NCBI RefSeq assembly: GCF_963576675.1
Contig: NC_088911.1
Span: 91,355,256-91,419,255, forward strand
Direction: 5' to 3'
From: Euphorbia lathyris
Taxonomy: Eukaryota; Streptophyta; Magnoliopsida; Malpighiales; Euphorbiaceae
DNA length: 64,000 nucleotides
Both the position numbers and the translations under genes were made by a program. Below are positions 842-64,000 of the stretch, piece by piece. The notes under the pieces are model-generated. The model had not been told where the DNA came from and made no database searches. It saw nothing but the letters and a program-made list of their open reading frames with translations. The first letter of the stretch is position 1. The number at the start of each line of letters is the position of its first letter.

Positions 842-1091
842 ACGCGAGGCGTGCCCAGGGGGGCGCCCCGCGTAGGGCGGCGTTTTTAATGCGGTTAGAG
901 GCAGAGACTCAAATACGCGGGGCGTAATAGGGGGCGCCCCGCGTGTTTGAGTTTCTGAACTTTAGGAACCCCGGAAAGGAACTCATACGCGGGGCGTAAG
1001 AGGGGGTACGCCCTGCGTAAAAGGTGTCCCTTGTAGAATTTTGGATCAGAGGCACAAAGACGCGAGGCGTGCATAGGAAAACGCCACGCGT
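842..1091 (-). repeat. Cluster of paired 11-bp GC modules, internal region of copy A
   Basis: Four pairs of the half-palindromic 11-mer ACGCRRGGCGT or its reverse complement start at 842/863, 915/934, 987/1008 and 1060/1081. Three pairs are 21 bp apart and one is 19 bp. In each pair the second member is inverted relative to the first, so the pair can fold into a hairpin. The cluster lies downstream of gag in the direction of transcription, as in the complete copy. Confidence 0.85.
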
Positions 1092-1310: not shown

Positions 1311-2811
1311 TTATTGCAAGACGTCCGTGTTGGAGCTTGACGGGTCCGAACTCCTATTGTTGAGGAGCGTTATCACCTGTCCGGATTCCCGATTCTTACC
1401 CCGCGGGTTTTGTTCAGTGTTCGCCGGGAGGGTTCCTAGTGGCCTTTCTTGTTGTTGATGGTTTAGGTGGGCCACCTGGCGGCTAAGATCCCTGCAAAAC
1501 ACTTCGCTATCGGAAAGACGGGTTAATATGTCCTTCAACAAGGACGTGACCGATTGGTCGTGTACATTGTTGGAGGGTGGAGCGTTTCGATTACCGGGCG
1601 CGGCTTGTGATTGCCCGAGCCCGTTTTCCCGAAATTCTTGCTCAAAGCCGTATGGGGGCCTCAACACGTTATTATTATTGCCATACGATAAGTTCGGGTG
1701 TTGGTACCGAGGCCTCCATATTATTATTATTATTATGGTGAGAATAGGAGTTCGGATGGGAATTATACCTTTGGTTGCCTCCTATATAACTTACGTTTTC
1801 GGTATCATCGGCGAAGGGGCTACCGGTTTTGCAATTAAACGCATCATGGTCTCCACCACAGTGAGTGCACATCAGGACCTGCACACTTTTATTGAGGCTT
1901 AATTGGGCGATCAACGAGTCAAGTTTCTTGTTCATTTTCGCTATGGAGCTTTTCGGAGCCTCCTTCTCCATAGCGAACGTCTGGTGTCGCGACGGGCCGG
2001 CAAGCCGATCCTCTTGCCATTGCACACTTTTCCTTGCGAGCTCGTGAATGAGCTCATAGGCCTCACTAGCTGACTTCCGAAATAGATCCCCACCTATAGT
2101 GGAATCAACAGTCGCACGGTTAGTGGGGGTTAACCCGTGGTAAAAAGTGCTTACCAAGTCGTGCTTTGGGATGTCATGGTGGGCGCAGTTTCAGAGCAAC
2201 TTTTGGAACCTAGCCCAAGCTGCGTGAAGGGCCTCGCATTCCAACTGCCTGAAGGATGTGATATCGGTCCGTAACTTGACTGTTTTGGACGGCGGAAAAT
2301 AGTAGGAAAGGAACTCCTTTTCGAGCTCTTCCCATGACGTTATGGATCCCGCCTCCAATGAGTGTAGCCATTCCAACGCCTGTCCTATCAATGAAAAAGG
2401 AAACAATTTCAGTCTTACAGCCTCAACGGGAACACCATTTTGCCGAGAGGTATCGACACACATAAGAAATTTATCCAAATGCTCGTTGGGGTTCTCATGG
2501 AGTTCCCCTCCGAATTGACCACATTGTTGTATCAATTGGATCATTCCGGTCTTGATCTCGTATGTATTGGTCGGGATCGTGGGGGCGATAATGCCATTAC
2601 GATTTTGGGGACGATGCGGAGCAAGGATCTCCATCATCGAACGTGTATCATTGCCCCTGCGAATGTTGTTCACTTGCGGCCTTGGGTTTCCATTGGGTTG
2701 GTTGACCTCGGCGTTGGGGTTTGCCATTTTCTCTTTTCGAATCCTACAAAGAGTACGTTCAATTTCAAGATCAATAGGAATAAGAGAATCACTTTTAGAT
2801 CGGGTGTGCAT
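1311..2811 (-). pseudogene. gag of copy A (broken)
   Basis: This is a Gypsy-type capsid and nucleocapsid precursor, which would package the element's RNA in cytoplasmic particles. The start is taken as the ATG at 2809-2811 because copy C begins at the same residue (MHTRS). A retrotransposon gag core with QALEWLHSLEAGSITSWEEL lies roughly at residues 120-190. A Cys-Cys-His-Cys knuckle (CTHCGGDHDAFNC, about 1831-1869) is intact here, unlike in copy C. The frame is closed by a TGA at 2191-2193 where copy C has CGA (Arg), and it slips near base 1730 in an AAT-repeat (Asn) run. The C-terminal part continues in another frame to the TAA at 1311. An Asn-rich linker follows the knuckle. Confidence 0.85.
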
Positions 2812-2946
2812 AAAGTAAAACAAGTATAAAAGAATTATCCACAAGAAAGAATAATGTTAGTAAGAGTATATATAAACAATTTATACAAAAAGAATGCTTA
2901 AACTAACAATGAAACGTTTTTGTCTAATATTGTAGGAGATTATAAA

Positions 2947-2964
2947 TCCCCGGCAACGGCGCCA
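2947..2964 (-). other. Primer-binding site of copy A (tRNA-Asp)
   Basis: Read on the minus strand, TGGCGCCGTTGCCGGGGA lies six bases inside the 5' LTR. It is complementary to the 3' end of plant tRNA-Asp(GUC) including CCA. It fixes the orientation and the LTR boundary of this copy. Confidence 0.9.
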
Positions 2965-3996
2965 AAAACTTGATAGCGCGGCGCCTAGTGGTAGAGTTTC
3001 TACGACGAAATATATATTATGAGTGCGGACTCTATGTCTATGGATGTGATCTTTTAAATGTTCTTAACTCTACTAGACGCTACGACTACTTAGGGGCAAG
3101 TGTACCCCGTCGTATCAAGTAATAATCCGGTTAAGACCGGGTATCGAATCCATGGGATTTATAATTACAAGTATTAGACGACTCGGTTTCGTATGTTATT
3201 TAAGCGGCAATTACTTTGGGGGTGAAGTAAGATACAACTACACACTATCCTAACTATTGGCGACTCAGATTTGTGTAGCTAAAACCCTATGAAGTGGGAT
3301 GAATATCGATAAGTTATAACCACGATAAATAATGACTCTAAATGTATACGGATAATAATTTACTCTTGCAAAGACGACTAAGTATAGTAGGACCGACCCG
3401 TGAAGCACTTAGACTACGTAATTCCTAGTCAAGGCGTGTCTAATGCGGGGGAATTAGAAACTAGGGCCCGTAAGTTCCGTGGCTTGTTAATTCCTACGGT
3501 TTCCGGTTTGTCACTTCCGGTAGGGCAACTCCTATATAACTCCCTAAAGATAGCCCGAATGGCGTCGGAAATCGCGTTCTCCTACACAATAGTCAATTAT
3601 CAATATCAAAACAAGTAGCAAATACTAACACGTAAAGGGAAATAGAGATTATAAATCATGAAATTATAAATATGAAATGTATATAAATGGGATACAACCA
3701 AGCCTAGTACATAGGAAGAGTACAAGCTAATTAGCACGTAAAAGGGGAGAATCCGCCCTTGAAACTAGCTAACCGGACTCAAAGCCGTCTCCTAGGTCGT
3801 GGAGGTGGAACTCTCGAGCTTGGTGACGAATGGTGGAGCGGAACTTCGATGGAATGCCGGAACAACCGAACAAGCTCTCGAGGTGGAGAGTTTAGCTACA
3901 AAAACTGAATCTATACTACAACAAGTAACAAAACAAGTATAGTAGCTCTCTAGTGTGTAATTATCTCCTGGTATCAAATGAAGTTCAAGAGCTTCC

Positions 3997-4004
3997 TATT
4001 TATA
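3997..4004 (-). promoter_or_regulatory. LTR TATA box, copy A
   Basis: TATAAATA on the minus strand lies just downstream of the GC-module array. The same octamer sits at the matching place in the other two LTRs (7056 and 13038), which supports it as the core promoter of the family. Confidence 0.65.
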
Positions 4005-4083
4005 GACATCAAGCAAGGGCAAGTTTGTAATTTCACAAAGCACAAGTATAGAGCAACATTATTTGGTGCAGAAATCCCATGAT

Positions 4084-4532
4084 ACGCCCCGCGTGAAGTG
4101 GTCTACGCCCCACGTAAATGCCCATTCCGTTAGAAATCTCCTGCATGTGGACCAATTCGTTGTCTTGTTGTCTCAAGCACGCCCTGCGTAAAGGATTGTA
4201 CGCCCCGCGTGTTTGAGTCTCTGAAGTTTTATTGCTTGAATTGGTGCTTTTACGCCGTGCGTAGCTGAAGTACGCCCCGTGTAAATGAGTCTCTAATCTT
4301 TTTATATTGAAGAACTGCCTTTTACGCCCCGCGTATATGGTGATACACCCCGCGTATGGAGAGTTGACTCCGGGAGACAGTGCAGTCTGACTTTCAGGAT
4401 TAGGCCAATTATTTCCGACATGTGTCATACGCCCCGCGTATGCTGAGTCAATTCCACATGGCATCTGCGGATAAGGCAATTATTGCTGACACCATGTTTC
4501 ACGCCCCGCGTAGAGGATGATACGCCCCTCGT
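4084..4532 (-). repeat. Paired 11-bp GC modules in the LTR of copy A
   Basis: Motif pairs start at 4084/4105, 4179/4200, 4252/4272, 4324/4345 and 4501/4522. The spacing is 21, 21, 20, 21 and 21 bp. A single motif at 4429 stands where the plus-strand LTRs have a pair, so one member was lost. On the minus strand the motifs read ACGCRRGGCGT in direct orientation. Confidence 0.85.
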
Positions 4533-4769
4533 ATGGAGTGGATTTTTGCTCCTTTCTCGTACCTGAAATACAAAACTTGCGAGCCGAGTTAGCTTGACGT
4601 TTGTATTTCCTAAACTAATAAAAAACGAGGAAAATTAACTGAAAGTACGAAATCTATTTTTATTTCTTTATTTTATCAAAATGCTTTATTTTTGTAATTA
4701 AACTTATTTATTTTATCTGAAATCAACCCGTAAATCACGCAAAAATTTAGGGGTAAAATACCCCTATCA

Positions 4770-4912: not shown

Positions 4913-6268
4913 GCCGTGCAACCCCGCACTTAACGTTTGTTTTGCACTAACAAAAACAAAAAAAAAATAAACAACAAAAAAATTAAACTAATTTATTGAT
5001 TCTTTAATTTTTCCGACACACTACCCTCCCTCGGAAATTAGCTAAAGTTCCGTTATTTGTCGTTAAAGGTAAATACCGTCGGAACACAAAGGATCGGTTT
5101 TAGTGAGAAATTTTAGTCTTAATTTTGAAGTTCTAGAATTTATGCAAAGCCTAGGTTTATACTAAACAAAAGCATTGAGTCCTAACCCACATGTCATCTC
5201 CATAATGAAATTTAAAAAGGCAATAAAAACGGGATGTTTGAAAGTTTAGCGAAGACTCGATAGTACACAATTTAAACCCGAAATTTTGTGAGGTAATTTT
5301 GAGCCTAAAAGAGTTCGTACGAGAACTCTATTTCCTTCACAATTTTTCGAGAGCTTTGACTTCACTCGACTCATAGAGTTTGCATCTAATACCGGGTTAA
5401 GTACACCTATTTTGGTTAAAATGGCAATAGATGAGAAAACGAACCCACTTAGTCTAAATCTTCTCTTAATTTATTTTTCTCATTTTTATCAATCTCTAGG
5501 AAACCCCCTTGAGCCTACTAACCGACTTTTCTTGTTAATACCCTTTTAACAATTAACCCTCTTTTTCCTCTTGTTTAAATACCAACAAAATCAATTCGCA
5601 CCCGAAATAAGTCAAGGCCTTAATAAGTGAGCACCACAAGTTCTCGAGATCGTTTTTGTGCCGCTCTCAAAACAAAAAGAAAAAGAAAAACATAATAAAG
5701 AGCAAAAAGGCATTCTCAAGCTCCACCCGAGCAATTTCGAGTTATATTTTACAAACTTACTAAGGCCAAAATAAAAACGCGGTGCGATCATCAAAATGGT
5801 ATTTAAACTCGAGTTTCCAAAAATTAACCACTAAAAAGCCACCCGCATTACAACCCCCCTCCAGGTTCATTTTTAATATTGCCTAGACCATAACATAGGA
5901 GGAAAAACCTGGATAAAAATGCAAACTCAAAGTGATCTCGAGTAAGTGCAAAGAAGAGTGCCAAAACACCGACCCACCAAAGTTTGAGCGTAAGAGTGAA
6001 ATCCCTTACTGAGGTACTATCAGGTTCTCAAAAGATAATCAACCCCCCGTTAATATTGCCTATTAATTTTGATCATGGAGGTTTCAAATAAGTTTTGGTC
6101 ACTCGATTGTTTGCGTAGGTACTTACCGAAAACTTTGCATAAAACTTTAACTTTGAAATCACGCACTTGGTAAAACCAACCGACGGTTTGTTTCTTAATA
6201 ATCTCAATCCCTTGTCTTTCGATTTCTTTTACATGAGGACAAGTAAAACTTTAAAGTCCAAGGAGGTT
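4913..6268 (+). mobile_element. Truncated 3' internal region of a gag-only Gypsy copy (copy B)
   Basis: This segment is nearly identical to 10888-12250, the non-coding 3' internal part of the complete copy. It ends in the same purine-rich tract (ending AGGAGGTT) directly before an LTR. It therefore belongs to a second copy whose 3' LTR is the LTR at 6269-8096, which is also the 5' LTR of copy C. Its left part is missing. The small minus frame at 5612-5794 recurs at 11594-11776 because the sequence recurs, not because it codes. Confidence 0.85.
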
Positions 6269-6505
6269 TGATAGGGGTATTTTACCCCTATCTTTTAGCG
6301 TGATTTACGGATTAATTTTAGAAGAAATGAATAAGTTTAATTGCAAAAATAGAGTGTTTTAATAAAATAACGAAATAAAAATAAATTCCGCACTTTCGGT
6401 TAATTTTCCTTGTTTTTGATTAATTTAGGAAATAAAACGTCAAGCTAACTCGGCTCTCGAGAATTGTATTTCAGGTACGAACAAGGAGTGAAAATCCACC
6501 ACAAT

Positions 6506-6975
6506 ACGCGGGGCGTCTCATTCTTTATGTGGGGCGTGAAACACCAAGTCAGAAATAATTGCCCTATCCACAAACACCACGTGGGATCTACTCAGCATAC
6601 GCGAGGCGTATACCACCATACGCGAGGCGTATGACATATGTCAGAAATGATTAGCCTAATCCTGAAAGTCAGACTGCATGGTCTCCCTGAGTCAACTATC
6701 TATACGCGGGGCGTACCACCTTACACGCGGGGCGTGTGAGGGAATTCTTCAACCTAAAAGAATCAGAGACTCATTTACGCGAGGCGTGCTTCAGCTACGC
6801 ACGTCGTAAAAGGACCAATTCAAGCAATAAAAAGTCAGAGACTCAACCACGCGAGGCGCATCCTAGTCTACGCGGGGCGTGGTTGAGACAACAAGATCTG
6901 GATATGGTCCACATGCAGGAGATTTCTGACGGAATGGGCAAACACGCAGGGCGCATACCACCATACGCGAGGCGT
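6506..6975 (+). promoter_or_regulatory. Six paired GC modules upstream of the LTR TATA box
   Basis: The 11-mer ACGCRRGGCGT (or a 1-3 base variant) starts at 6506/6527, 6599/6620, 6704/6725, 6777/6797, 6849/6870 and 6944/6965. Pair spacing is 21 bp in five cases and 20 in one; successive pairs lie 72-105 bp apart. Sequence just outside a pair is often complementary (for example CATACGC with GCGTATG), so each unit is also a small foldback. The array ends about 80 bp upstream of the TATA box, the usual place for U3 enhancer repeats. A regulatory role is inference. Confidence 0.8.
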
Positions 6976-7055
6976 ATCATGGGATTTCTGCAAAAAATCA
7001 TGTTCCTCCATGCTTACACCTTGTGGAATTACAATTTTACCCTTAGCTTGATGTG

Positions 7056-7063
7056 TATAAATA
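7056..7063 (+). promoter_or_regulatory. LTR TATA box (5' LTR of copy C)
   Basis: TATAAATA lies in the middle of the LTR, downstream of the module array, and is conserved in all three LTRs of the family. Transcription would start some 30 bp downstream. Confidence 0.65.
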
Positions 7064-8102
7064 AGAGTGACTATCACTCATTTCAGACACTTTTTGACAC
7101 ACCTTGTAACATATACCATCTTGAGATTAAATTCTTACCATTTGTAGTTTTAGATTTTGTTTTTAGGCTTTATATAGCCAAACTCTTTCACCTTAAGAGC
7201 TTGTTCGTTGATTCCGGCATTCCATCAAAGTTCCGCTCCATCTCCGTGCACCAAGCTCGAAAGCTCCACCATCCAAGTCCTAAGAGACGGCTTTGAGTCC
7301 GGTTAGCTAGTTCTGAGGTTGGATTCTTCCCTTTACACTTGCTAATTAGCTTGTACTCATCCTATGTACTAGGCTTGGTTGTAATTCATATTTGCATTCT
7401 CCATATTTATAATTTATGATTCATAATCTTCTTTTCTATATATGTGTTGATGTTTGTTACTTGTTTTGATACTCGTAATTGATTATTGTGTAGGAGAACG
7501 CGATTCCCGACGCCATTCGGGCTATCTTTAGGGATTCATATAGGTGTTGCCTTACCGGAAGTGATGCTCCGGAAACCGTAGGAATTGACAAGCCACGAAA
7601 CTTACGGGCCCTAATTTCTGGTCCCAAGCATTAGACACGCCTTGACTAGGAACCACGTAGTCTAAGTACTTCACGGGTCGGTTACACTACACGTAGTCGT
7701 CTTTGCAAGAGCAAAACATCAACCGTATATGCATTAGGAGTCATTATTTGTCATATTTATACCTTATCGCATCCACATCATTTCATAGAGTTTCGTTATA
7801 TAAATTCGCCTCACCCATAGTTAGGAGTAGTTTGTAGTTGGTCCCTATATCAACCTCAAAGTATTCACCGCTTAAATAATGTATAAAACCGAGTCGTTTA
7901 ATACTTGCAGTTATAAATCCCGTGGATTCGATACCCGATCTTAACCGGATTATTACTTGATACGACGGGGTACACTTGCCCCTAAGTAGTGGCGTCTAGT
8001 AAAGATAAAGCATTTAGAAAGATCACATCCATAGTCGTAACGCACTTATCATACATATTTTGTCGTAAAGAACACTACACTAGACGGTACGCATCAAGTT
8101 TT

Positions 8103-8120
8103 TGGCGCCGTTGCCGGGGA
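8103..8120 (+). other. Primer-binding site of copy C (tRNA-Asp)
   Basis: TGGCGCCGTTGCCGGGGA, six bases after the LTR end, is complementary to the 3' end of tRNA-Asp(GUC). It is identical to the site of copy A. Confidence 0.92.
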
Positions 8121-8254
8121 TTTATAATACCTTGCAATATTAGACAAAAACGTTTTATTGCTAGTTTAAGCATTCTTTTTGTATAAATTGTTTATATGTA
8201 CTTTTACTAACATCATTCTTTCTTGTTGATATTGTATTTTATTTCATTCTTTTT

Positions 8255-9759
8255 ATGCACACCCGATCTCGGAATGATTCTCTCGTTCCTATTGATCTAG
8301 AAATTGAACGTACTCTTTGTAGGATTCGAAGAGAGAAAATGGCAAACCCCAACGCCGAGGTCAACCAGCCCGAAGGAAACCAAAGGCCGCATGTGAACAA
8401 CATCCGCGGGGGCAACGACACACGTTCGATGATGGAGATCCTTGCTCCGGATCGTCCCCAAAACCGTAACGGAATTGTCGCCCCCACGATACCGGCCAAC
8501 ACGTACGAGATAAAGACCGGCATGATCCAGCTGATACAACAATGCGGTCAATTCGGAGGGGAACTCCATGAGAACCCTAACGAACATCTCGATAAATTTC
8601 TTATATGTGCCGACACCTCTCGGCAAAATGGTGTTCCCGTTGAGGCTGTAAGACTAAATTTGTTTCCTTTTTCTTTGACAGGGCAAGCGTTGGAGTGGCT
8701 ACACTCGTTGGAGGCGGGATCCATCACGTCATGGGAGGAGCTCGAGAAGGAGTTCCTTTCCTACTATTTCCCGCCGTCCAAAATAGTCAAGCTACGGACT
8801 GATATCATGTCTTTTAGGTAGCTAGAATGCGAGGCCCTTCATGCAGATTGGGCTAGGTTCCGGAAGTTGCTCCGAAACTGCCCCCACCATGACATTCCAA
8901 AGCACGACTTGGTAAGTACCTTTTACCACGGTTTAAGCCCCACTAATCGTGCAACCGTTGATTCCGCTGCAGGTGGGGATCTATTTCGGAAGTCAGCAAG
9001 TGAGGCCTACGAGCTCATTCACGAGCTCGCGAGAAAAAGCATGCAGTGGCAAGAGGATCGGCTTGTCGGGCCGTCGCGACATCAAACGTTCGCTGTGGAG
9101 AAAGAGGCTCCGAAAAGTTCCATGGCGGAAATGAATAAAAAACTTGACGCGTTAATAGCCCAGTTGAGCCCCAACAAAAGTGCACAGGTCCTGATGTGCA
9201 ATCACTATGGTGGAGACTATGACGGACTCCATTGCCAAGCCGATAGCCTTTTCGCCGGCGACACCGAAAATGTGAGTTATATAGGAGGCAATCAAAGGTA
9301 CAATCCTAACCCGAACTCCTATTCACACCACCACAATAATAATAACAATGGATGGAGGCCTCGACACCAGCACCCGAACTTGTCATATGACAATAATAAT
9401 AATGTGTTGAGGCCCCCATCCGACTTTGATCAAGAATATCGGGAAAACGGGTTTGGGCAATCACAAGCGATGCCCGGTAATCGGAACACGCCACCCCCAA
9501 TAATGTGCATGGCCAGTCCGTAACGTCCTTGTTAAAGGATATCTTAACTGGTTTCGCCGATAGTGAGGTGTTTTGCAGGGACCTTAGCCGCCAAGTAGCC
9601 CACCTGAATCGTCAGCAGTAAGAAAGGCCACTAGGAACCCTCTCGGTAAACACCGAACAAAACCCGCGGGGTAAAAATAGGGAGTCCGGACAGGCGATAA
9701 CACTCCTGAATAGTGGAAGTTCGGACCCGTCATGTTCCAACTCGGACAACTTGCATTGA
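8255..9759 (+). pseudogene. gag of copy C (broken)
   Basis: This Gypsy-type Gag precursor starts at the ATG for MHTRSRND, 135 bases after the primer site. The capsid-like core occupies roughly residues 80-190. A TAG at 8819-8821 replaces the Gln codon that copy A keeps, and the frame then continues to the TAA at 9521-9523. A small deletion near 9500 shifts the C-terminal part, whose natural stop is the TGA at 9757-9759. The zinc knuckle is destroyed: the second Cys (about residue 318) and the His (about 322) are both Tyr, from TGT to TAT and CAT to TAT. His- and Asn-rich runs follow. RNA packaging by this product is unlikely. Confidence 0.87.
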
Positions 9760-10075: not shown

Positions 10076-10771
10076 ACGCGGGACGTCCACACGGATACGC
10101 CCCGCGCATCTGTGTGTCTGCCCATCTTTCTCAATAAAAGACACACTATGCGGGGCGTCCCTCCTACCACGCCCCGCGTACCCTTCGGAAATTAAAACCC
10201 CTTCGAATAAATGCCACGTGGGAGGACACGCGGGACGTGCCCTAGGGCACGCCTCGCGTATCCTCGGGGAGTTGTGAATTACAACTCCCCATGGCAGCCT
10301 TTTCCCTTCTCCACTCTTCCCATTACTCTTCCCACTTCCCCATATATCTTTCCCACTTCCACACTCCACCTCCTCTCACCTCCAATCACATCACCTCCTT
10401 TCAAATTCAAATCCTTTCACCTTCCCTCCACATTAATTCTATCTAAACCACCTTCTTAAATAAACTTAAAAATCATAAAAATCATTAAATACTCATTAAT
10501 AAACCATAAACCACCAAATTAAAAATAAAAAAAAAAACTGAAAACTTGTTTCAACTTCTATCTTTTACGCGGGGCGTACCCCTATGTACGCCACGCCACG
10601 CGTACACCCTTGTACGCCCCGCTTGATCGCTCTTTTTTCTGGCATAAAAAGTCCAGAAACTCAAACACGCGGGGCGCCCCTCTTACTGCGCCCCGCGTAT
10701 TTGAGTCTCTGCCCAAAAAGAGCTCACATCGCACCTCCTACGCGGGGCGCCCCCCTGGGCACGCCTCGCGT
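10076..10771 (+). repeat. Cluster of paired GC modules, internal region of copy C
   Basis: Motifs start at 10076/10097, 10148/10169, 10228/10249, 10567/10588 (with a further step 10593/10614 created by a 5-bp duplication), 10667/10688 and 10740/10761. Every pair is exactly 21 bp apart. Here the second member is inverted, unlike the direct pairs in the LTR. At 10228-10259 the ten bases between the motifs extend the foldback almost to the centre. At 10655-10710 flanking CTCAAA/TTTGAG extends the arms to about 24 bp around a 10-base loop. The setting is otherwise AT-rich and non-coding. Confidence 0.85.
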
Positions 10772-10887
10772 TGGACCAAACCTTCAAAGGGTCTATTTTT
10801 AATATCATGTCTCTTTTTGTTTTTGTTTTTGTTTTTCTCTTCTTTTGCGACGTCATTGGAATAGACGTCATTTTAATAACGCGGAGG

Positions 10888-12250
10888 GCCGTGCAACCCC
10901 GCACTTAACGTTTGTTTTGCACTAACAAAAACAAAAATAAAAAATAAAATAAACAACAAAAAAATTAAACTAATTTATTGATTCTTTAATTTTTCCGACA
11001 CACTACCCTCCCTCGGAAATTAGCTAAAGTTCCGTTATTTGTCGTTAAAGGTAAATACCGTCGGAACACAAAGGATCGGTTTTAGTGAGAAATTTTAGTC
11101 TTAATTTTGAAGTTCTAGAATTTATGCAAAGCCTAGGTTTATACTAAACAAAAGCATTGAGTCCTAACCCACATGTCATCTCCATAATGAAATTTAAAAA
11201 GGCAATAGAAACGGGATGTTTGAAAATTTAGCGAAGACTCGATAGTACACAATTTAAACCCGAAATTTTTTGAGGTAATTTTGAGCCTAAAAGAGTTCAT
11301 ACGAGAACTCTATTTCCTTCACAATTTTTCGAGAGCTTTGACTTCACTCGACTCATAGAGTTTGCATCTAATACCGGGTTAAGTACACCTATTTTGGTTA
11401 AAATGGCAATAGATGAGAAAACGAACCCACTTAGTCTAAATCTTCTCTTAATTTATTTTTCTCGTTTTTATCAATCTCTAGGAAACCCCCTTGAGCCTAC
11501 TAACCGACTTTTCTTGTTAATACCCTTTTAACAATTAACCCTCTTTTTCCTCTTGTTTAAATACCAACAAAATCAATTCGCACCCGAAATAAGTCAAGGC
11601 CTTAATAACTGAGCACCACAAGTTCTCGAGATCGTTTTTGTGCCGCTCTCAAAACAAAAAGAAAAAGAAAAACATAATAAAGAGCAAAAAGGCATTCTCA
11701 AGCTCCACCCGAGCAATTTCGAGTTATATTTTACAAACTTACTAAGGCCAAAATAAAAATGCGGTGCGATCATCAAAATGGTATTTAAACTCGAGTTTCC
11801 AAAAATTAACCACTAAAAAGCCACCCGCATTACAACCCCCCTCCGGGTTCATTTTTAATATTGCCTAGACCATAACATAGGAGGAAAAACCCGGATAAAA
11901 ATGCAAACTCAAAGTGATCTCGAGTAAGTGCAAAGAAGAGTGCCAAAACACCGACCCACCAAAGTTTGAGCGTAAGAGTGAAATCCCTTGGTGAGGTACT
12001 ATCGGGTTCTCAAAAGATAATCAACCCCCCGTTAATATTGCCTATTAATTTTGATCATGGAGGTTTCAAACAAGTTTTGGTCACTCGTTTGTTTGCGTAG
12101 GTACTTACCGAAAACTTTGCATAAAACTTTAACTTTGAAATCACGCACTTGGTAAAACCAACCGACGGTTTGTTTCTTAATAATCTCAATCCCTTGTCTT
12201 TCGATTTCTTTTACTTGAGGACAAGTAAAACTTTAAAGTCCGAGGAGGTT
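10888..12250 (+). other. Conserved non-coding 3' internal region of copy C
   Basis: This stretch recurs at 4913-6268 and, inverted, at 1-730. It has no open frame shared by the three copies. Its conservation in a coding-poor element suggests cis functions such as packaging or RNA export, but recent common origin explains it equally well. Confidence 0.75.
12235..12250 (+). other. Polypurine tract of copy C
   Basis: AAAGTCCGAGGAGGTT lies directly before the 3' LTR. Nearly the same tract lies at 6253-6268 before the shared LTR. It would prime plus-strand synthesis. Confidence 0.7.
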
Positions 12251-14078
12251 TGATAGGGGTATTTTACCCCTATCTTTTAGCGTGATTTACAGATTAATTT
12301 TAGAAGAAATGAATAAGTTTAATTGCAAAAATAGAGTGTTTTAATAAAATAACGAAATAAAAATAAATTCCGCACTTTCGGTTAATTTTCCTTGTTTTTG
12401 ATTAATTTAGGAAATAAAACGTCAAACTAACTCGGCTCTCGAGAATTGTATTTCAGGTACGAACAAGGAGTGAAAATCCACCACAATACGCGGGGCGTCT
12501 CATTCTTTACGCGGGGCGTGAAACACCAAGTCAGAAATAATTGCCCTATCCATAGACACCACGTGGGATCTACTCAGCATACGCGAGGCGTATACCACCT
12601 TACGCGAGGCGTATGACATATGTCAGAAATGATTACCCTAATCCTGAAAGTCAGACTGCATGGTCTCCCCGAGTCAACTATCTATACGCGGGGCGTACCA
12701 CCTTACACGCGGGACGTGTGAGGGAATTCTTCAACTTAAAAGAATCAGAGACTCATTTACGCGAGGCGTGCTTCAGCTACGCACGGCGTAAAAGGACAAA
12801 TTCAAGCAATAAAAAGTCAGAGACTCAACCACGCGAGGTGCATCCCAGTCTACGCGGGGCGTGGTTGAGACAACAAGATTTGGATTTGGTCCAAATGCAG
12901 GAGATTTCTGACGGAATGGGCAAACACGCAGGGCGCATACCACCATACGCGAGGCGTATCATGGGATTTCTGCACAAAATCATGTTCCTCCATGCTTGTA
13001 CCTTGTGGAATTACAATTTTACCCCGTGCTTGATGTGTATAAATAAGAGTGACTAGCACTCATTTCAGACACTTTTTGACACACCTTGTAACATATACCA
13101 TCTTGAGATTAAATTCTTACCATTTGTAGTTTTAGATTTTGTTTTTAGGCTTTATATAGCCAAACTCTTTCACCTTGAGAGCTTGTTCGTTGATTCCGGC
13201 ATTCCATCAAAGTTCCGCTCCATCTCCGTGCACCAAGGTCGAAAGCTCCACCATCCAAGTCCTAAGAGACGGCTTTGAGTCCGGTTAGCTAGTTCCGAGG
13301 GTGGATTCTTCCCTTTACACTTGCTAATTAGCTTGTACTCATCCTATGTACTAGGCTTGGTTGTAATTCATATTTACATTCTCCATATTTATAATTTATG
13401 ATTCATAATCTTCTTTTCTATATATGTGTTGATGTTTGTTACTTGTTTTGATACTCATAATTGATTATTGTGTAGGAGAACGCGATTCCCGACGCCATTC
13501 GGGCTATCTTTAGGGATTCATATAGGTGTTGCCTTACCGGAAGTGACGCTCCGGAAACCGTAGGAATTGACAAGCCACGGAACTTACGGGCCCTAATTTC
13601 TGGTCCCAAGCATTAGACACGCCTTAACTAGGAACCACGTAGTCTAAGTACTTCACGGGTCGGTTACACTACACGTAGTCGTCTTTGCAAGAGCAAAACA
13701 TCAACCGTATATGCATTAGGAGTCATTATTTGTCATATTTATACCTTATCGCATCCACATCATTTCATAGAGTTTCGTTATATAAATTTGCCTCACCCAT
13801 AGTTAGGAGTAGTTTGTAGTTGGTCCCCATATCAACCTCAAAGTATTCACCGCTTAAATAACGTATAAAACCGAGTCATTTAATACTTGCAGTTATAAAT
13901 CCCGTGGATTCGATACACGGTCTTAACCGGATTATTACTTGATACGACGGGGTACACTTGCCCCTAAGTAGTGGCGTGTAGTAAAGATAGAGCATTTAGA
14001 AAGATCACATCCATAGTCGTAACGCACTTATCATACATATTTTATCGTAAAGAACACTACACTAGACGGTACGCATCA
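12251..14078 (+). repeat. 3' LTR of copy C
   Basis: It is the same length as the 5' LTR and keeps all landmarks, with the module array at 12488-12957 and TATAAATA at 13038-13045. Many differences between the two LTRs are C/T or G/A changes, some inside module CpGs. Confidence 0.9.
12488..12957 (+). promoter_or_regulatory. Six paired GC modules in the 3' LTR of copy C
   Basis: These are the positional equivalents (offset 5982) of the modules at 6506-6975, with the same spacing. Individual motifs differ by single bases from the 5' LTR while the spacing is unchanged. Confidence 0.8.
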
Positions 14079-14559
14079 ACAACCCCCAAACACGACGGAG
14101 GACCGCACTCACCGGTAGAGTTCAAGGGCGACGTCGGCTGGAGATCGCGACGTCGATGGTGGTAGCGGCAGCTAGGTCACAAACTGGGCGGCGACGGTGG
14201 CCCTTTCTTCATCGCACGAGAGGCACTGTATTTTATCTATTATGGAAAATGACTTCCTAGATACTTAATTTATAAATTTTAATCCTTAAAATATATTAAA
14301 AATACTGATTTTACTAGTTTAATATAATTCAAAATCATTACGTTGTAAATAATTTTTCAAATCTGAATTTCTCTAAATTTCCCTATTTTTTAGGTAAAAT
14401 AATAGTATTATTTTACTAATTCATTATCCTATTAATTAGTCTTTCAAATGGTATGCATCCTAGATTTTGAAATAGAAAAATATATCTGAAGAATATTTTG
14501 AAATAAAAAAAATTAATCCATTAAACTAATTTGGAACAAAATAACTAGGTATGAGAAAA
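14079..14559. other. Intergenic segment, GC-rich then AT-rich
   Basis: The first 140 bp after the LTR are GC-rich and include several GCGACG words. The rest is AT-rich. I see no frame or repeat I can name. The GC-rich part may be a host or older-element remnant. Confidence 0.4.
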
Positions 14560-16306: not shown

Positions 16307-17656
16307 TGTTGGTCCCTTGTAAGGTTGCAAATATAGTTCCAAATGGGGGGTTAGGAACTATTTGACCTTTTTTAATTGATTAGGGCAAATTTCTTTTTCT
16401 TAAGAAAAGATTATATGACAGCGGCGCTGATCAATCGACAAGACACTGGCTTAGTCAACTAGTGACTAGGTCAGTTTCGTTGCTTAGGTCAGGAAATAGC
16501 ACTTGGAGTCTATTCCTGAACTAATTCGTTGACAGCGCACAACTCAGCTTGACCTCTTTTACTTGGTCAGTTTTAGTTTGTTTTAAGCAAGCAATATAAA
16601 TAAGGAGTTAAGGTTTAGAAATACTTCACTCAGCAGATTTATCCAGGTTCGGCTTCTTCCAAGCCTACGTCCTGTCCCCGGAACACTTTCGAGATTTCAA
16701 ATCCTCTACTGAGCTCTTTAAAGGTAGAGCCTAAAACCTTTTACAATATCAGCAATTGAGTATGATAAGAGTACCTTCCTCTATACTTCTACTCAATCCT
16801 AATCTCTCCGCTGAGTACTTAAAACCGAGTACTCAGCCTCTCCTTTCTATTCCTAGAAATGATTAAGATTTGTCCTAAACAACAATTGCTAGAACACCTT
16901 AGATGATTGAGGATCAATCACTCTAGACTTTTACACAAATGAATAAGCTTGTGGTGTAAGAATTTGCTTTGCTTTTGATGGAGAACTTTTTGTACACGTT
17001 TGGTCAGCGTAACGGCTTTTGCTCAAAGTTCTCTATTGAATGTGGATTCTGAATGCTCTATTTATAGAGAGCTGTGAGAGCTTCTGGTTATTTCGAATTT
17101 CGAAATAACCGTTGGAGGGAAACGGCTTCATGTCGCTTTCACTCAGTCTGTTCAGCAGTTCTCTTAGCCAATCAGATTCCAGCATCTTCTGTTCTTCGAT
17201 CAGTGTGGTAGTATGTTCCTCCAAATCGGGTAATGTCAAACAGACAGCTTCCTGCGTCTTCTGTTCTTTACCAACAGAGGAAATACTTGGTCTGGAAGTT
17301 GCTTTGTGGTCAGCGGCTATCTTGTACGTTTTGTCGAGACAGCTCAGCAGCTTCATACTGAAGTTGTCTACGTGGATCTTCTCGATCCTTCATTGGTGAG
17401 CTCCGTTTCAATACTCAACGGCAGCGTTTTGAAATACGCGGGCTGAGTGATCTTGGGCTTGTTTGACTTGGGCTTTGACTTCCATATAGAGCTTGGGCCT
17501 TATGATCTTTATGTCTTATAACAATTATGAACTCAACATTGAACAAACACATTAGTAACAATAAATCAAAGCATTTAAACTTAGTGTGTTGTAGAATATT
17601 TAATTTCACTTAATTAACTTTGTCAAATCAAAATCCTGTGGAAAGGTGTTTCAACA
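16307..17656 (-). repeat. 3' LTR of the SIRE element
   Basis: It runs TGTTGGTCCC to TTTCAACA and has a TATA box at 17059-17066 (minus strand). Just upstream of that box lies a near-perfect 25-bp palindrome at 17086-17110 with TTTCGAA core words. The frames at 17033-17609 inside it are not genes. Confidence 0.92.
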
Positions 17657-17753
17657 AACTCCCCCATTTTGATGTTGGCAAAACTAATCAGCAAGGAACT
17701 CAGCGTTGAGCTCCCCCATGATAGTTGACCTTTTTGATTAAGTGAACTCCCCC
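17657..17753 (-). other. Multiple polypurine tracts of the SIRE element
   Basis: On the minus strand AAAATGGGGGAGTT (17657-17670) touches the 3' LTR. Two further GGGGGAG tracts lie at about 17711-17716 and 17745-17753. Repeated polypurine tracts next to the 3' LTR are a known signature of the SIRE lineage. Confidence 0.75.
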
Positions 17754-18135
17754 GTCAGGGCTGAGCTACTGACTTAGTTTTATTCTAAACATTCTAAGGT
17801 TTAATTGAATAAGTCTAAGATCAGTTTTCAGGTATAGGTCAGCTTATGGGTCATATTCTATTTTACTCAGTATTCAGCGGAAGTAATGTATAGTGACAGA
17901 GCATAGCGCTGAGTAATTTATTTGTTCAATGGTTTATATTAGACAAGTTCAAACATTAATTTTTATACGCAGCATGCATTCAGATAATACTTAGCATGTA
18001 GGATATATAACCAGGATAAGTAACCAAAAGAAGTTAGGCATATTTAATTGCTTTCAAAAAAAATAAGAACAAACACATAAGGAATTCTTAACTACTTCTA
18101 AATTCCTTCCTAACTTCTTCCCTAACTTCTAACGT

Positions 18136-19872
18136 CTAACGTTGAGTTCCTTCTCCTGAATTGCCACTTTTCTCCCCCGTTTTGCCAGCAGCAGTAGGCA
18201 AATTGATGGATGGGGCAGTGGACTTGGTGAGTTCTTGCAGCATATGAATTTGACCCTCCAAAGAGTTCATGTGATTGACCATAGTCAACATGAGTTCGGT
18301 CATTTTGGTCATTTGAGCTTGGGTTGGTTGCTGCGTCTGAACCGAAGAGAAGTGGTTGATCAAGTCATGAATTTCACGCAGAATTTGGTGAGTTACAGAT
18401 GGATGAGAGGACTGATCGTGAGTGGACTGGTTATGGTTTGGTGGAGAATGAATTTGTTCTTGAAGCAGAGTGTCAACTGAGGCAATGACACGCCGTCCTG
18501 ATTCAGTAGCACCTAGGTGTGCAAATTTGGTAGGAGTGGGCTCGCACTGAGTGCCTTGAGTAGCATCAGGACTATGGGGTGTGTTGACTTCAGGTGCTGA
18601 GTTGCTCTGGTATTGAGTTGGAGGTGGGATTTGAGCTTCTTTTGGACTAGCAGGGGTTTTGGCTTGTTTCTCACTTTGAGGAATAGAGGCTTGTTTTTGT
18701 GGAGAACCCTCTTGGGTAATGTGGGGCTCAAGAACAGTTTCTTCTTCTGTTCTCATTTTCTTCTGAGCTGACTCAGCTAGGTCCTGATCAACTTTCTTCT
18801 TGTTTCTTTCCATTAGCCTTACCTTTCTTGGGACAGTACGAATATCCTTCGAGCAGGTTCCCTTTTTCTTCTTCTTCTCAGTTTGAGCAATCTCAGATGG
18901 CACAGTAGAAATATACTCAGTTTGAGGTTCATGTGTTGGTTCTGTACCCTCATCAGATTGAGCAGTTTCAGCCATAACATTAGCTATAGCATCATCCAGA
19001 TCTGTTAGATTTTCCATTTCTCCAATGGGTTGCTCAATCTCAGCCATAATATCCTCCTTCTCAGTGCTTCCATTTCCGTCATATCCTTTCAGGGGTTGAC
19101 TATGTGATAGTCCATTCAGCAGACCTGCAGTGATAACATTTCCTGATGAACTTATTTCACCTACAGTCTCTATATTCTTGTCCTGTATTATCTTTGTGAT
19201 GAGAGAACCCAAACGGAGCTGCCGTCCACTTCGTTGAAAAGCTCCGACCAAAAAGACAGGAAGATTGAATGGAGTGCTGGTCAGCATGTGCCAGATGAAG
19301 CATTGTTCAAAGTTAGAGGCGGATGAGGGTGAGCTGAGTTTAGGAAAGATGAAGTTGGTCAACATGAAGTGGACCATCTTCTGATTTTTGCCCATGCAGG
19401 TGCTGGGTACTTCTCCTTTGTAGTCTCTGGGTTTACAGAACCCCTTCATCTTTTCTGCGATGGCTTTTGGTATTGGCTCCTTTGTTGTCCTGAACCGGAT
19501 CCCTGTATTTGGTATATCTAGCAGTGTTGCTAGATATTCAGGATTTATCACTATCTTTTGACCTTTAACTATAGTCTCTAAGTAGTCAGAGTCATCTGCA
19601 TCAACGTGCAGGTTGGAGTAGAACTCTCTCACTATCGTGGGATAGGTTTGTCCGGAAAGAGAGAAGAGACCTTTCCATTTGTTCTTTTTGATCCATTCAC
19701 AGAATGGTTTCTCAGAAGAGACGAAACCAGAGTGAAAGTATCGACTCCTTAGTACTTCTTGATTCTTGGCCCAAGAATGTACCTTGATCATCCTTCTTAC
19801 CATACTAGTTGAAGGACCAGCCTGATCAGTGGATTTGAGGGTTGGAGAGAAGGTACTTTTGTTTAAGGACAT
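18136..19872 (-). CDS. Envelope-like ORF of the SIRE element (intact frame)
   Basis: This 578-codon frame lies downstream of pol, in a different frame and about 470 nt past the pol stop, so simple readthrough of the pol stop would not reach it. The first half resembles the domain often labelled envelope-like or putative plant transposon protein in plant elements: charged start, Ser-Pro-rich lead, then about 170 ordered residues. The second half is low-complexity (Lys-rich run, Pro/Gln/Ser/Thr-rich stretches), with a short helical, coiled-coil-like segment near residues 525-565. I see no signal peptide or clear membrane segment, so envelope function is unproven. Start chosen at the first ATG. 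Expression would need a separate or spliced RNA. Confidence 0.75.
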   Translation of the reverse strand: MSLNKSTFSPTLKSTDQAGPSTSMVRRMIKVHSWAKNQEVLRSRYFHSGFVSSEKPFCEWIKKNKWKGLFSLSGQTYPTIVREFYSNLHVDADDSDYLETIVKGQKIVINPEYLATLLDIPNTGIRFRTTKEPIPKAIAEKMKGFCKPRDYKGEVPSTCMGKNQKMVHFMLTNFIFPKLSSPSSASNFEQCFIWHMLTSTPFNLPVFLVGAFQRSGRQLRLGSLITKIIQDKNIETVGEISSSGNVITAGLLNGLSHSQPLKGYDGNGSTEKEDIMAEIEQPIGEMENLTDLDDAIANVMAETAQSDEGTEPTHEPQTEYISTVPSEIAQTEKKKKKGTCSKDIRTVPRKVRLMERNKKKVDQDLAESAQKKMRTEEETVLEPHITQEGSPQKQASIPQSEKQAKTPASPKEAQIPPPTQYQSNSAPEVNTPHSPDATQGTQCEPTPTKFAHLGATESGRRVIASVDTLLQEQIHSPPNHNQSTHDQSSHPSVTHQILREIHDLINHFSSVQTQQPTQAQMTKMTELMLTMVNHMNSLEGQIHMLQELTKSTAPSINLPTAAGKTGEKSGNSGEGTQR

Positions 19873-20344
19873 TTTTGAAGTTCTGAAGCTCTTAAGTGCT
19901 TAAGGAAAATTCTGAAGCTTTCTAAAGTTCAGTGCGCATGAAGAGAAGGTAGTGGGTTAATATCCACTATTTATAGATTTTTAACTTGGATTTCCATTTG
20001 AATTTTGGTCGGTTTTGCCCTTGGGTTGTCCAATCGACAGAAAATCTGACATTTATGACACTTTAAGACGTATTCGGCGCATGCGCAGTACAGGTGTCAT
20101 TACGCGTGTGGTGGCATTAAATGTTAATGATTACTTTTACTCAGCGTTTGTTGTTATAAACGTTTCATATTCTGAGTAGTCAGTTTTGTTCAACGGATAG
20201 TTATAGAGGTTAGTTACTCGGCATGAGATAACTCACACAGTGTGCATTTATTTCTAGGCATGTGATTTTGACAGATACTCTTTAAAACACTCAGCATGTT
20301 AACATTCATTCAGCATGCATCATATCACATTTTTACTTAGGAAT

Positions 20345-22387
20345 TTAAGACAGTGGATTAAACATACCAATGGCTTCTCTCAGTATGCTGAGTTGCTCTC
20401 GTGCTAGAGGCTTTGTAAAGATATCAGCGAGCTGCTCATCGGTTGGTACATAAGTCAGCTTGATTTCTTCCTTGAGTACATGATCTCTGATGAAGTGATG
20501 TCTTATGCTGACATGCTTCATCCTGCTATGCTGAATTGGGTTCTTTGAGAGGTCAATTGCACTTTTGTTGTCGCATTTAACTTCAATTGTCTTTGTTTGA
20601 ACACCATAATCTTCAAGCTGTTGCTTAATCCATAGGACTTGAGCAACACAGCTTCCAGCAGCAATGTACTCAGCTTCAGTTGTAGACAGGGCTACTGACG
20701 CCTGCTTCTTGCTGAACCAAGATACAAGACAGCTTCCTAGGAAATGGCATCCTCCAGAGGTGCTTTTTCTTTCGAGCTTGTCCCGTCCATAGTCAGCGTC
20801 AGTGTATCCAATGAGTGTAAAGTCATGAGTATTTGGATACCACAAACCTGCATTTATTGAGCTTTGCAAATATCTAAGGATCCTTTTTACAGCTATGTAA
20901 TGGGATTCCTTAGGGTTAGCCTGATATCTAGCACAATAACATACTGAGAACTGAATGTCCGGCCTACTTGCTGTTAAGTAAAGTAAAGAGCCAATCATAC
21001 CTCGGTACAACTTGCTGTCTACTGACTTACCATTCTCATCAGCACAGAGGACAGTGTCAGTGCCCATAGAAGTGGATATTGGCTTACAATGTTCTAGTTC
21101 ATATTTCTTCAATATCTCCTTGGCATATTTAGCTTGACTGATGAATATGCCATTCTTTCCTTGTTTAATTTGAAGTCCAAGGAAGAAGTTGAGTTCTCCC
21201 ATCATTGACATTTCGAATTCAGTCTGCATTTGCTTGCTAAATTCCTTGCACATAGATTCATTAGTAGCACCAAATATGATGTCATCTACATATATTTGTG
21301 CCAGCAGGGTATCTTTACCCTTTCTCTTAATGAATAAGGTTGTATCAGCTTGACCTCTGACATAATTTCTAGTCAGTAAGAAGTTGGTCAGCCTCTCATA
21401 CCAAGCACGTGGTGCTTGCTTGAGACCATACAGAGCCTTTTTGAGTTTGTAAACGTGGTTTGGGAACTTAGAATCCTCAAACCCTGGAGGCTGATTGACA
21501 TAGACCTCCTCGTTTATTACTCCATTAAGAAATGCACTTTTAACATCCATTTGAAATAGTTTAAAATTCATATAAGATGCATATGCACATAAAATCCTAA
21601 TTGCTTCTAGCCTTGCCACTGGGGCAAAGGTCTCACCATAGCCAATACCTTCTTGCTGACTGTAGCCCTGAGCTACAAGTCTTGCCTTGTTTCTGACTAT
21701 GTTTCCTTGTTCATCCAGCTTGTTCCTGAAGACCCATCTTGTTCCAATGGTCTTTTGGCTTCTTGGATGTGGCACTAGCTCCCATACATTATTCCTCCTG
21801 AATTGGTCGAGTTCCTCTTGCATGGCATTCATCCAGAATTCGTCATGCTCAGCTTCGGCAAAGTTCTTCGGCTCCTGAACTGAGACGAAAGCTACATTGC
21901 CGAGATACTTCCTTAGTTGATTCCTTGTCATCAGCGTATTTCCAGCTGAGTCAAGAATTGCATTTTCTAAATGCCCTCTTAGGACTCTTATCTCCTTGGG
22001 TAGATTCATGTCTTGTTCTACTCGTGTTTCAACATTCTCTGCAGAAGTAGATTGGTCAGTGAAAGTAATTTTAGGTTCACTCTTACTCTTGGTCAGCCGT
22101 TTTGTGAAGGACTCAGTAGCTGGTTCTTGATCAGCAGTTGCTGAGTTTGGTTCATCTTCTATCAGCGGCTGGTATCTTCCTGCAGGGTCAGTTTCATCGA
22201 ATTGCACATGTATAGATTCTTCTAATACTTGGGTTCTTTTATTAAAAACTCTGTATGCTTTGCTGTTTGTTGAGTAGCCTAGAAAGATAGCCTCATCAGC
22301 TTTTGAATCAAATTTGGCTAAGCTATCTTTGGTATTTAAAATAAAACATCTACAGCCAAAGGCGCGAAAGTATCCAATGTTGGGCTT
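20345..22387 (-). pseudogene. SIRE pol, reverse transcriptase and RNase H part
   Basis: A 620-codon frame starts at the ATG at 22207, and similarity continues upstream in the same frame to the TGA at 22388-22390. It contains a Copia RT core: [10 protein letters not shown] at residues 220-229 with catalytic Asp 221, [13 protein letters not shown] at 258-270, and YVDD at 306-309. RNase H follows with [15 protein letters not shown] and CDNKSAI, ending at the TAA just before 20345. All visible catalytic residues are kept. The TGA upstream stands where relatives have Arg after ELWKG, most simply CGA to TGA. In the element this enzyme copies genomic RNA to DNA in cytoplasmic particles. Confidence 0.9.
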
Positions 22388-23478
22388 TCATCCTTTCCAA
22401 AGTTCATAAGGGGTTTTCTTAAGTATAGGTCTGACTAGAGCCCTATTTAGAATATAGCATGCTGTGTTAACAGCTTCTCCCCAAAAATACTTTGGAAGCC
22501 TATGCTCATCCAGCATTGTCCTGGCTATTTCAACCAAAGTTCTGTTCTTCCTTTCTACAACCCCATTTTGCTGAGGTGTTCTAGGAGCAGAAAAATTGTG
22601 GTCAATGCCGCTGGCTTCACAGAATTCAACAAACTTTTGATTTTTGAATTCTCCACCGTTATCACTACGGATATGAGCTAATTTTAGGTCTTTTTCATTT
22701 TCAATTTTTCTAACCAAATTTGAAAATGTCTCAAAGGTCTCATCCTTGCTGGTCAGCAAGATAACCCACGTATACCGAGAGAAATCATCTACAATGACCA
22801 AGGAAAATCTTCTTCCACCCAGACTCAGCGGCTGGACTGGACCAAAGAGATCCAAGTGTAGTAATTCTAACGAACGTTTAGTTGAGACAATGTTTTTACT
22901 GTGAAAAGATTGTTTGGTTTGTTTTCCAGCTTGGCAAGCGTGGCATAATTGATCTTTTTGAAATTTAAGTTCAGGCAGTCCCTCAACCAATTGCTTTCTT
23001 GCTAGTTTGGCCAGGAGGTCCATGCTTACATGACCAAGTCTCCTGTGCCATAGCCAGGAATTTTCTTCCTTTGTTACTAAGCACACAGTTTTTGAAAACT
23101 TTTTCTCTAAGTCTAGCATAAAGACATTATCTATCCGAGGGGCAGTTAAAATTAACTCATTAGTTTTACCCTCGTATATTTTACATCCAGTAGCATCAAA
23201 TATAACTTTTCTTCCATTGTCACATAGCTGAGCTACGCTGAGTAAGTTATATTTGAGTCCGCTGACTAGGGAGACAGATTCAATAGTAGGGTTACCTCCG
23301 ATGATTCCTGAGCCTACTATCTTACCCTTCTTGTTGTCTCCAAAACTTACACTCCCTCCTCATTTACGTTCAAACGTGATGAACTGAGTTTCATCACCCG
23401 TCATATGCCTTGAGCATGCGCTGTCAATATACCACATCTTTGACTTCTCGGCACATCTCAGGCTTACCTGCATTGTAA
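22388..23478 (-). pseudogene. SIRE pol, protease and integrase part
   Basis: The stretch opens with the protease signature WYIDSACSRHMTG (Ala in place of the usual Gly after Ser, a variant I believe also occurs in related elements). A TGA at 23360-23362 interrupts it. The 243-codon integrase frame starting at 23119 has a zinc-binding H-H-C-C region (WHRRLGH with CHACQAGK) and the D, D, E catalytic residues in LDLFGPV, RSDNGGEF and NGVVERKNRTL. The frame closes at the TGA at 22388. Relative to gag the frame is shifted by one base near 23479, where a single-base loss best explains the change. Integrase would insert the cDNA with 5-bp staggered cuts, matching the ATAGC duplication. Confidence 0.88.
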
Positions 23479-25245: not shown

Positions 25246-25281
25246 CTCAAGGTTGTTAGACCTTTAGTAATGAGCTTTTAG

Positions 25282-25293
25282 GCTCTGATACCA
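25282..25293 (-). other. Primer-binding site of the SIRE element (initiator Met tRNA)
   Basis: TGGTATCAGAGC on the minus strand lies two bases inside the 5' LTR. It is the standard plant Copia primer site, complementary to initiator tRNA-Met. Confidence 0.93.
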
Positions 25294-25295
25294 CT

Positions 25296-26642: not shown

Positions 26643-26647
26643 ATAGC
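26643..26647. repeat. Target-site duplication of the SIRE Copia element, right
   Basis: ATAGC matches 16302-16306. The LINE reverse transcriptase frame resumes immediately on the right. Confidence 0.9.
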
Positions 26648-63848: not shown

Positions 63849-64000
63849 TGATAACTTGTGGAAAAATCCTTGATCGGAGCCCTTCCCTGTGAGGCGCCGT
63901 TGGGATCGGCCGGGGACACTCCGATGCCAAAGTCAGTATAGAGGAACAAGAGAGCAAACTGAATTGACAAAGGTTGTGAGAATGTGTACCTTGATAGCCT
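63849..64000 (-). repeat. 5' LTR of the right-edge element (partial)
   Basis: The visible 152 bp match 57736-57887 with no difference that I can see. Confidence 0.88.

Follow-up and report, generated by a model that had tools for sequence, protein, structure and literature searches.

Paired ACGC-N3-GCGT palindromes at a fixed spacing in LTR retrotransposons of Euphorbia lathyris

Palindrome arrays in two copies of one retrotransposon family

The 64,000-nucleotide stretch of E. lathyris DNA analysed here (the window) contains two copies of a single LTR-retrotransposon family, F1: copy B on the plus strand and copy A, diverged and truncated, on the minus strand. The 5' LTR of copy B (4913–8097, plus strand; ends approximate) is 97.9% identical to the 3' LTR with which it pairs (10888–14079, plus strand). 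Five base pairs past the 5' LTR, at 8103–8119 (plus strand), lies a primer-binding site that fits tRNA-Asp, judged by what we take to be the 17-mer at the 3' end of that tRNA. The gag gene follows at 8165–9523 (plus strand) and is of Ty3 type. Retrotrans_gag (PF03732) is found on both sides of a single in-frame stop (8819–8821), scoring below the gathering score in the piece after the stop, for which a protein search returned no homologue. Gag aside, the 2.8-kb interior of copy B has no stop-to-stop ORF of at least 150 aa on either strand. No env-like ORF was seen in copy B, though an internal array precedes its 3' LTR, and no reverse transcriptase was found among its two ORFs and 20 ORFs scanned from the fetched stretches described below.

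With its LTRs, primer site, gag and no other ORF of at least 150 aa, copy B resembles TR-GAG, a non-autonomous type of element that has LTRs, a PBS and gag and lacks pol. Unlike TR-GAG, some F1 stretches show Transposase_32 ORFs, and the family may not be gag-only throughout. The primer site 5 bp past the LTR is also reminiscent of the Ty3 elements Athila/Calypso, for which a passage of PMC1142308 places a tRNA-Asp primer site a few bp past the LTR.

A motif scan of the 5' LTR finds six pairs of ACGC-N3-GCGT dyads at 6506–6975 (plus strand), with starts at 6506/6527, 6599/6620, 6704/6725, 6777/6797, 6849/6870 and 6944/6965 and member spacings, in pair order, of 21, 21, 21, 20, 21 and 21 bp. 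The original prediction had described six pairs of ACGCRRGGCGT. The pairs and their spacing hold up, but only eight of the 12 members are the exact 11-mer: 6849 and 6944 have one mismatch each, 6527 has two arm mismatches, and 6797 differs in both arm and centre. The ten inner bases were said to vary while the spacing stays fixed, and they do vary, although the decamers of two of the six pairs (6599 and 6944) are identical and the six are slightly more alike than shuffles (P = 0.009). The same spacing had also been claimed for the other LTRs. All six pairs are kept in the 3' LTR of copy B (12488–12957, plus strand), while in the LTR of copy A (4084–4532, minus strand) five pairs are present and the second pair, which lacks 21 bp, is reduced to a single site. 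Over the whole window we count 35 ACGCNNNGCGT palindromes against 0.11 expected, all inside copies A and B, and 53 occurrences of the 11-mer with at most one mismatch against 0.73 expected.

The array ends 80 bp upstream of a TATA box (TATAAAT, 7056–7062, plus strand), in agreement with the predicted distance of about 80 bp. A second short motif, CAGAGACTC, lies in the 41-nt linker preceding the fourth pair (6764–6772, plus strand) and again at 6836–6844, and occurs in varied forms in other families. The same LTR holds a 23-bp palindrome, GATAGGGGTATTTTACCCCTATC, at 6270–6292; the alignment of copy A stops within about 2 bp of it (4770).

Further arrays, absent from the original prediction, lie between gag and the 3' LTR. 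Copy B has one at 10076–10259 (plus strand), with three inverted pairs in which a GRG centre is followed by a CYC centre at a spacing of 21, and one at 10567–10771 (plus strand), also of inverted pairs at 21 bp. Copy A has four inverted pairs at 842–1091 (minus strand; 21, 21, 19 and 21). The centres are inverted, yet the spacing stays at 21 bp, apart from the 19 and an odd 5/26-bp step at 10588/10593 in copy B, which lacks sequence that copy A has there.

Other features of the window include a Copia element on the minus strand (16307–26643), with LTRs 98.7% identical, gag, pol (thousands of matches in a protein search) and, between pol and the 3' LTR, a Transposase_32 (PF20167) ORF where Sireviruses carry an extra ORF. 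We considered this Sirevirus-like element as a carrier of such a cluster, and no palindrome cluster was seen in its LTR. An unrelated second palindrome array, at 58984–59588, is a tandem array of period 79 and 7.7 copies, built of units of about 26 bp that each form an ATGAAG...CTTCAT dyad. Two 152-bp stretches (57736–57887 and 63849–64000) are 100% identical, the second ending at the window edge; possibly they are the LTR ends of a young element that extends beyond the window.

Spacing, conservation and helical phase

The fixed spacing of the original prediction is borne out genome-wide, where the distribution is narrow rather than broad. In the 1.02-Gb assembly containing the window, 13,636 direct 11-mer pairs have a gap of 0–30 bp, and 12,448 of these (91.3%) have exactly 10 bp between the members. 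Among the matches listed, nine direct pairs are off ten, and in seven of these the gap is nine bases. For inverted pairs the count is 2,284 in forward and 2,264 in reverse reading, largely the same places (about 2,280), with three off the 10-bp gap among the matches listed. The reversed-pattern control gave zero in each of these searches. These counts are for the whole genome, and the listed places are the first ones on contig C1. A pattern scan of viral contigs gave at least 120 stretches. All the stretches that we fetched lie within the first 4.5 Mb of a single contig, and they include cases of two LTRs from one element. In these and the window, 211 of 247 distinct pairs are direct and none is everted (CYC then GRG). 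Of 250 distances of up to 130 bp between neighbouring sites in the first 20 stretches, 240 are 20–21, 51–52, 71–75 or 83–84 bp.

For conservation, length and covariation we used 33 of 41 F1 arrays, leaving out L130, the third array of L133 and six that span at most 430 bp. Mean pairwise difference is 0.075 in the arms, 0.180 in the centre, 0.357 in the inner bases, 0.187 in the linker and 0.161 and 0.202 in the flanks, the arms being lower than the linker (p = 4e-5) in stretches picked by exact pairs and hence biased to intact arms. Each arm position is a single base in 0.94–0.98 of the arrays. Inner length is ten throughout slots 1–3 (33/33, 29/29 and 32/32 arrays) and only ten or nine in slots 4–6, with 10:9 counts of 10:23, 27:6 and 32:1. 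Length changes per substitution are 0.38 for the inner bases, 0.51 upstream and 0.95 downstream, a difference given without a significance test; in inner slots 4 and 5 alone, length varies about as often as in flank blocks. One of the five linkers is constant (41 nt in 33/33), one is nearly so and three vary in length. The array also has the fewest pairwise indels per substitution (0.035, against 0.046–0.058 in the surroundings), as counted over 260 of the 528 possible, non-independent pairs of the 33 arrays.

Between copies A and B, the arms differ at 9/88 and the inner bases at 17/49 (p = 0.001). The same comparison shows no significant slowing of the arms relative to the remainder of the element (p = 0.14), and the motif CpGs are kept no better (26/33) than those elsewhere in the LTR (42/51).

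Recent copying of whole 32-bp units with identical inner bases can be ruled out as the source of the spacing, since the inner decamers are the fastest-evolving class, diverged by 36% across the 33 arrays. Conserved arms, fast inner bases and a held length are together the pattern expected of spaced protein sites, for which unit copying alone is insufficient; judged from the alignments, the conservation looks like that of such sites.

Helical phase beyond the single pair is harder to separate from inheritance. The positions of the 5' LTR array fit a period of 10.4 bp best (R = 0.94; with random inter-pair gaps of 45–95 as the null, P = 0.003, a value that is optimistic because the arrays are related 73-bp tandem units whose phase is partly inherited); at exactly 10.5 bp, R = 0.77 and P = 0.016. 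Phasing of the whole array, inseparable from unit inheritance, is suggestive only. The two arrays of copy A also fit 10.4 bp. Part 1 of the internal array of copy B fits 10.15 bp and is poor at 10.5 (R = 0.30), and part 2 fits more weakly (R = 0.71). Distances of 53–83 bp in the first 100 matches listed are 72–74 (88), 83 (4), 80–81 (4), 70–71 (2), 62 (1) and 55 (1), of which most, not all, fit multiples of 10.4 bp. Other multiples (31, 42, 63 bp) are rare, though pure phasing would allow them. Indels beyond 1–2 bp within the arrays are mostly of 9–12, 19–22, 31 or 42 bp, and the downstream flank has many of 3–8 bp; these sizes come from comparisons of non-independent pairs, and repeats that exchange with one another should in any case give rise to the 21-bp class. 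Some variants break the phase: L155 has 69 bp in place of 74, L149 is shifted by more than 100 bp, and family F3 has gaps of 70–71. Nucleosome phasing was also considered and set aside: no rotational signal would be expected from GC-rich stretches that alternate at a 21-bp and not a 10-bp period.

The module in other LTR families

We counted a site cluster as an LTR array when at least 85% of its sites pointed the same way, which leaves 47 of 62; the 15 mixed clusters were set aside, including L157, which is the partner LTR in the F4 element, and L143, which was assigned to no family. These 47 arrays, from 40 fetched stretches and the window, comprise 41 of F1 and six of other families, namely F2 (L131, L152), F3 (two in L151, one in L161) and F4 (L158). 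In the LTR parts downstream of the array, blastn (E ≤ 1, one representative each) finds no match between F1, F2 and F3/F4; F3 and F4 are mutually related. The array parts themselves give matches between families (best E 6e-9, F1–F3). The tRNA-Asp primer string occurs 1,050–1,145 bp past 17 of the 41 F1 arrays and past none of the six others; behind an array that sits in a 3' or solo LTR, no such string would be expected. F3 has a 738-bp LTR with TGGTATCAGAGC directly after it, F4 has a 757-bp LTR followed by a near-match to TGGTATCAGAGC, and F2 has a candidate primer site only, different from those of F1 and F3/F4.

Common to F1–F4 are the pairs and the 41-nt linker, which often carries the second motif CAGRRRCTC. 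Linker identity across families is 0.38–0.45 against 0.27–0.30 for shuffles, and inner decamer identity is 0.22–0.35 against 0.22–0.29, the linkers being those where dyads that have no more than one mismatch follow each other at a step of 51–53 bp (four in F2, five in F3, two in F4). Some right members of the LTR arrays in F2–F4 have inverted centres. A TATA-like box lies within 400 bp downstream in 46 of the 47 arrays, a count made without a chance control, which is in line with the predicted promoter-proximal position. Its distance is 77–99 bp in F1, 157 in F2, 192–215 in F3 and 224 in F4; in AT-rich DNA a match of this kind is not unusual over 400 bp, which makes the boxes of F2–F4 weaker evidence.

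A PF03732 gag is also present in fetched F1 stretches and in F4, where it is weakly similar to that of F1 (24% over 118 aa, E = 0.006). F2 and F3 gave no Pfam match among the ORFs scanned, and no shared protein beyond the gag class was detected between the array-carrying families. A small F3 element (L151:1677–5073) has 738-bp LTRs, a tRNA-Met primer site and a 736-aa stop-to-stop ORF (2371–4578) that extends into the second LTR; this ORF matched nothing in Pfam, and a protein search gave no homologue at E ≤ 1e-5. Beside F1 arrays, Transposase_32 ORFs lie antisense at L153:2–1441 and sense at L136:2915–4999 and L148:3537–5000, a strand difference that possibly reflects nested insertions.

As far as these alignments go, LTR families that cannot otherwise be aligned have a 73-bp cis-module in common. 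It may have reached them through recombination or shared descent, or may be a slowly evolving relic of common descent.

A candidate promoter-proximal platform

Palindromes of maize Sireviruses reportedly include CACCGGACNNNGTCCGGTG, in work of 2016 attributed to Bousios. A portion of PMC10760457 describes maize Sirevirus palindromes as attracting small RNA and as occurring in Helitrons too, which parallels the sharing of the module between element types here. The Sirevirus RM of Ty1/copia elements consists of GC-rich dyads clustered upstream of the LTR TATA box and bordering CpG islands, with more copies internally, the extra ones in the internal linker upstream of env; an element carries 8 to 32 copies, a CGG-CCG core is present in 12 of 13 published RMs, and function is unproven (PMC2829016). 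This is the closest described equivalent of the array, and the original statement that none had been described has to be given up. Both are GC/CpG-rich dyad palindromes that form an LTR cluster upstream of the TATA box and have further internal copies. However, the core here is ACGC-N3-GCGT and not CGG-CCG, and the carriers, unlike Ty1/copia Sireviruses, have a Ty3-type PF03732 gag (window copy, F1 stretches and F4) and, in F1, a tRNA-Asp primer site. The RM section of PMC2829016 contains no fixed pair spacing or 73-bp module, both of which are present here, and the module, unlike the RM, is common to LTR families otherwise unalignable. Because neither the copia lineage nor the CGG-CCG core applies, we regard the array as a variant of the Sirevirus RM kind and not a member of it; the Ty3-type carriers, the other motif, the fixed pair spacing and the sharing across families are new.

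Portions of PMC11963269 and PMC6317226 describe tandem repeats between pol and the 3' LTR in Retand and other OTA (Tat/Athila) elements. Similarly, the internal array here lies between the coding region and the 3' LTR of a Ty3-type element and is built of diverged tandem units that gain and lose copies. Unlike those repeats, its units are conserved dyads at a fixed spacing, shared with the LTR promoter array, and the window copy has no ORF of at least 150 aa after gag on either strand. Ty3 Del LTRs, with CpG islands in their 5' part, likewise show a CpG-rich variable stretch in the LTR of a Ty3 element, but the passage of PMC4029996 that describes them gives no palindromes or spacing. The literature at hand, mostly without subscription papers and partly in excerpt, holds no description of ACGC-N3-GCGT in an LTR or of a fixed pair spacing. 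Text searches with six 11-mers gave matches in nine papers, such as a lettuce FISH oligo with TACGCGGGGCGT (excerpt of PMC11598091), none with a second dyad at 21 bp in the text returned; five degenerate motif forms gave no match. None of the known plant motifs was matched to the dyad.

We think it reasonably probable that the array provides, close to the promoter, a platform for a DNA-binding factor that recognises the dyad. Lying in U3 of the LTR, it would work in cis as a regulatory platform on which every ACGC-N3-GCGT dyad is a site for a symmetric (dimeric) DNA-binding protein. Two sites 21 bp, or two helical turns, apart could then place two dimers or one tetramer on the same DNA face. 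Five to six pairs would recruit several complexes upstream of the TATA box, with CAGRRRCTC in some of the linkers, and these complexes might drive or modulate retrotransposon transcription. The module would have spread by recombination or shared descent through several LTR families of the genome, with an inverted-centre variant placed between gag and the 3' LTR. The original prediction had proposed a platform for a dimeric host factor; a dyad-recognising factor is still the best reading, while its host origin we infer.

The palindromes could instead act folded, as a series of RNA or cruciform hairpins, for example as Dicer substrates yielding siRNA, as proposed for maize Sirevirus palindromes. 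The U3 of the 3' LTR would belong to the element transcript. The internal inverted pairs at 10550–10790 (241 nt) are very stable (−111 kcal/mol, z = −10.9) and fit this alternative, and the 501-nt LTR stretch as a whole also folds more stably than its shuffles do (z = −3.7). The folds of single LTR pairs are patchy, with three of six more stable than shuffles (z −2.8 to −4.4), two like shuffles and one borderline (z −0.72, −0.59 and −1.62). The F1 LTR pairs are direct, with GRG facing GRG, as are most pairs overall, and a hairpin needs no fixed 10-bp loop of free sequence. Flank complementarity within slots equals the shuffle (26.81 vs 26.96), although pooled over pairs it exceeds the pooled shuffle at the first three positions and position 9. 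Within-slot covariation is confined to one slot of six, slot 5 (6849/6870), with a two-sided change (AT16/CG9). This fifth pair sits inside a long inverted repeat at 6839–6890 (CTCAACC...GGTTGAG), kept across the family, where a long stem is possible, unlike the other five pairs. The folds and the covariation in the LTR argue against the hairpin alternative that the original prediction had allowed for that array, and against hairpins as a principle common to both arrays. The feature that the LTR and internal arrays share is the dyad and its spacing, not a stem, and we consider a hairpin series unlikely.

It is also conceivable that the array is a neutral by-product, a 73-bp minisatellite grown by unequal exchange and passed among families, its spacing a matter of unit inheritance. 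This would agree with linkers that are homologous within and between families, with the 21-bp gains and losses that recur in copy A, L133, L151 and L165, and with the tandem repeats before the 3' LTR that a portion of PMC11963269 presents as usual in Retand-type Ty3 elements. Yet the arms evolve at less than half the flank rate and the inner bases fastest (33 arrays), the flanks change length, per substitution, 1.3 to 2.5 times as often as the inner decamers, and the spacing is the same in direct and inverted pairs; we therefore give neutral growth little credence. Binding by an element-encoded protein, such as an anti-silencing or packaging factor of an autonomous partner, in place of a host transcription factor seems to us quite improbable. 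Three F1-array stretches do have a Transposase_32 (PF20167) ORF near the LTR (3 of 10 ORFs scanned), and Retand elements encode TRP28, predicted to bind DNA in a passage of PMC11963269. However, the same array occurs in families whose primer sites differ and for which no common protein outside the gag class was detected; a host factor or sharing in trans accords better with this.

It is tempting to think, though we hold this tentatively and at somewhat less than even chance, that several lineages of one plant genome, with different LTRs and primers, acquired a two-turn-spaced dyad module that places thousands of elements (estimated from the 12,448 exact pairs) under one host DNA-binding complex, as a shared enhancer spreading independently of coding regions. 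The arrays bear on how plant LTR retrotransposons recruit the host transcription machinery, and on why GC-rich palindromes persist despite inviting silencing. The distinct rates of arms, inner bases and spacing, together with thousands of natural variants, make the question of recruitment testable with one probe and one reporter. A module common to otherwise unalignable families would show that promoter modules move between transposons.
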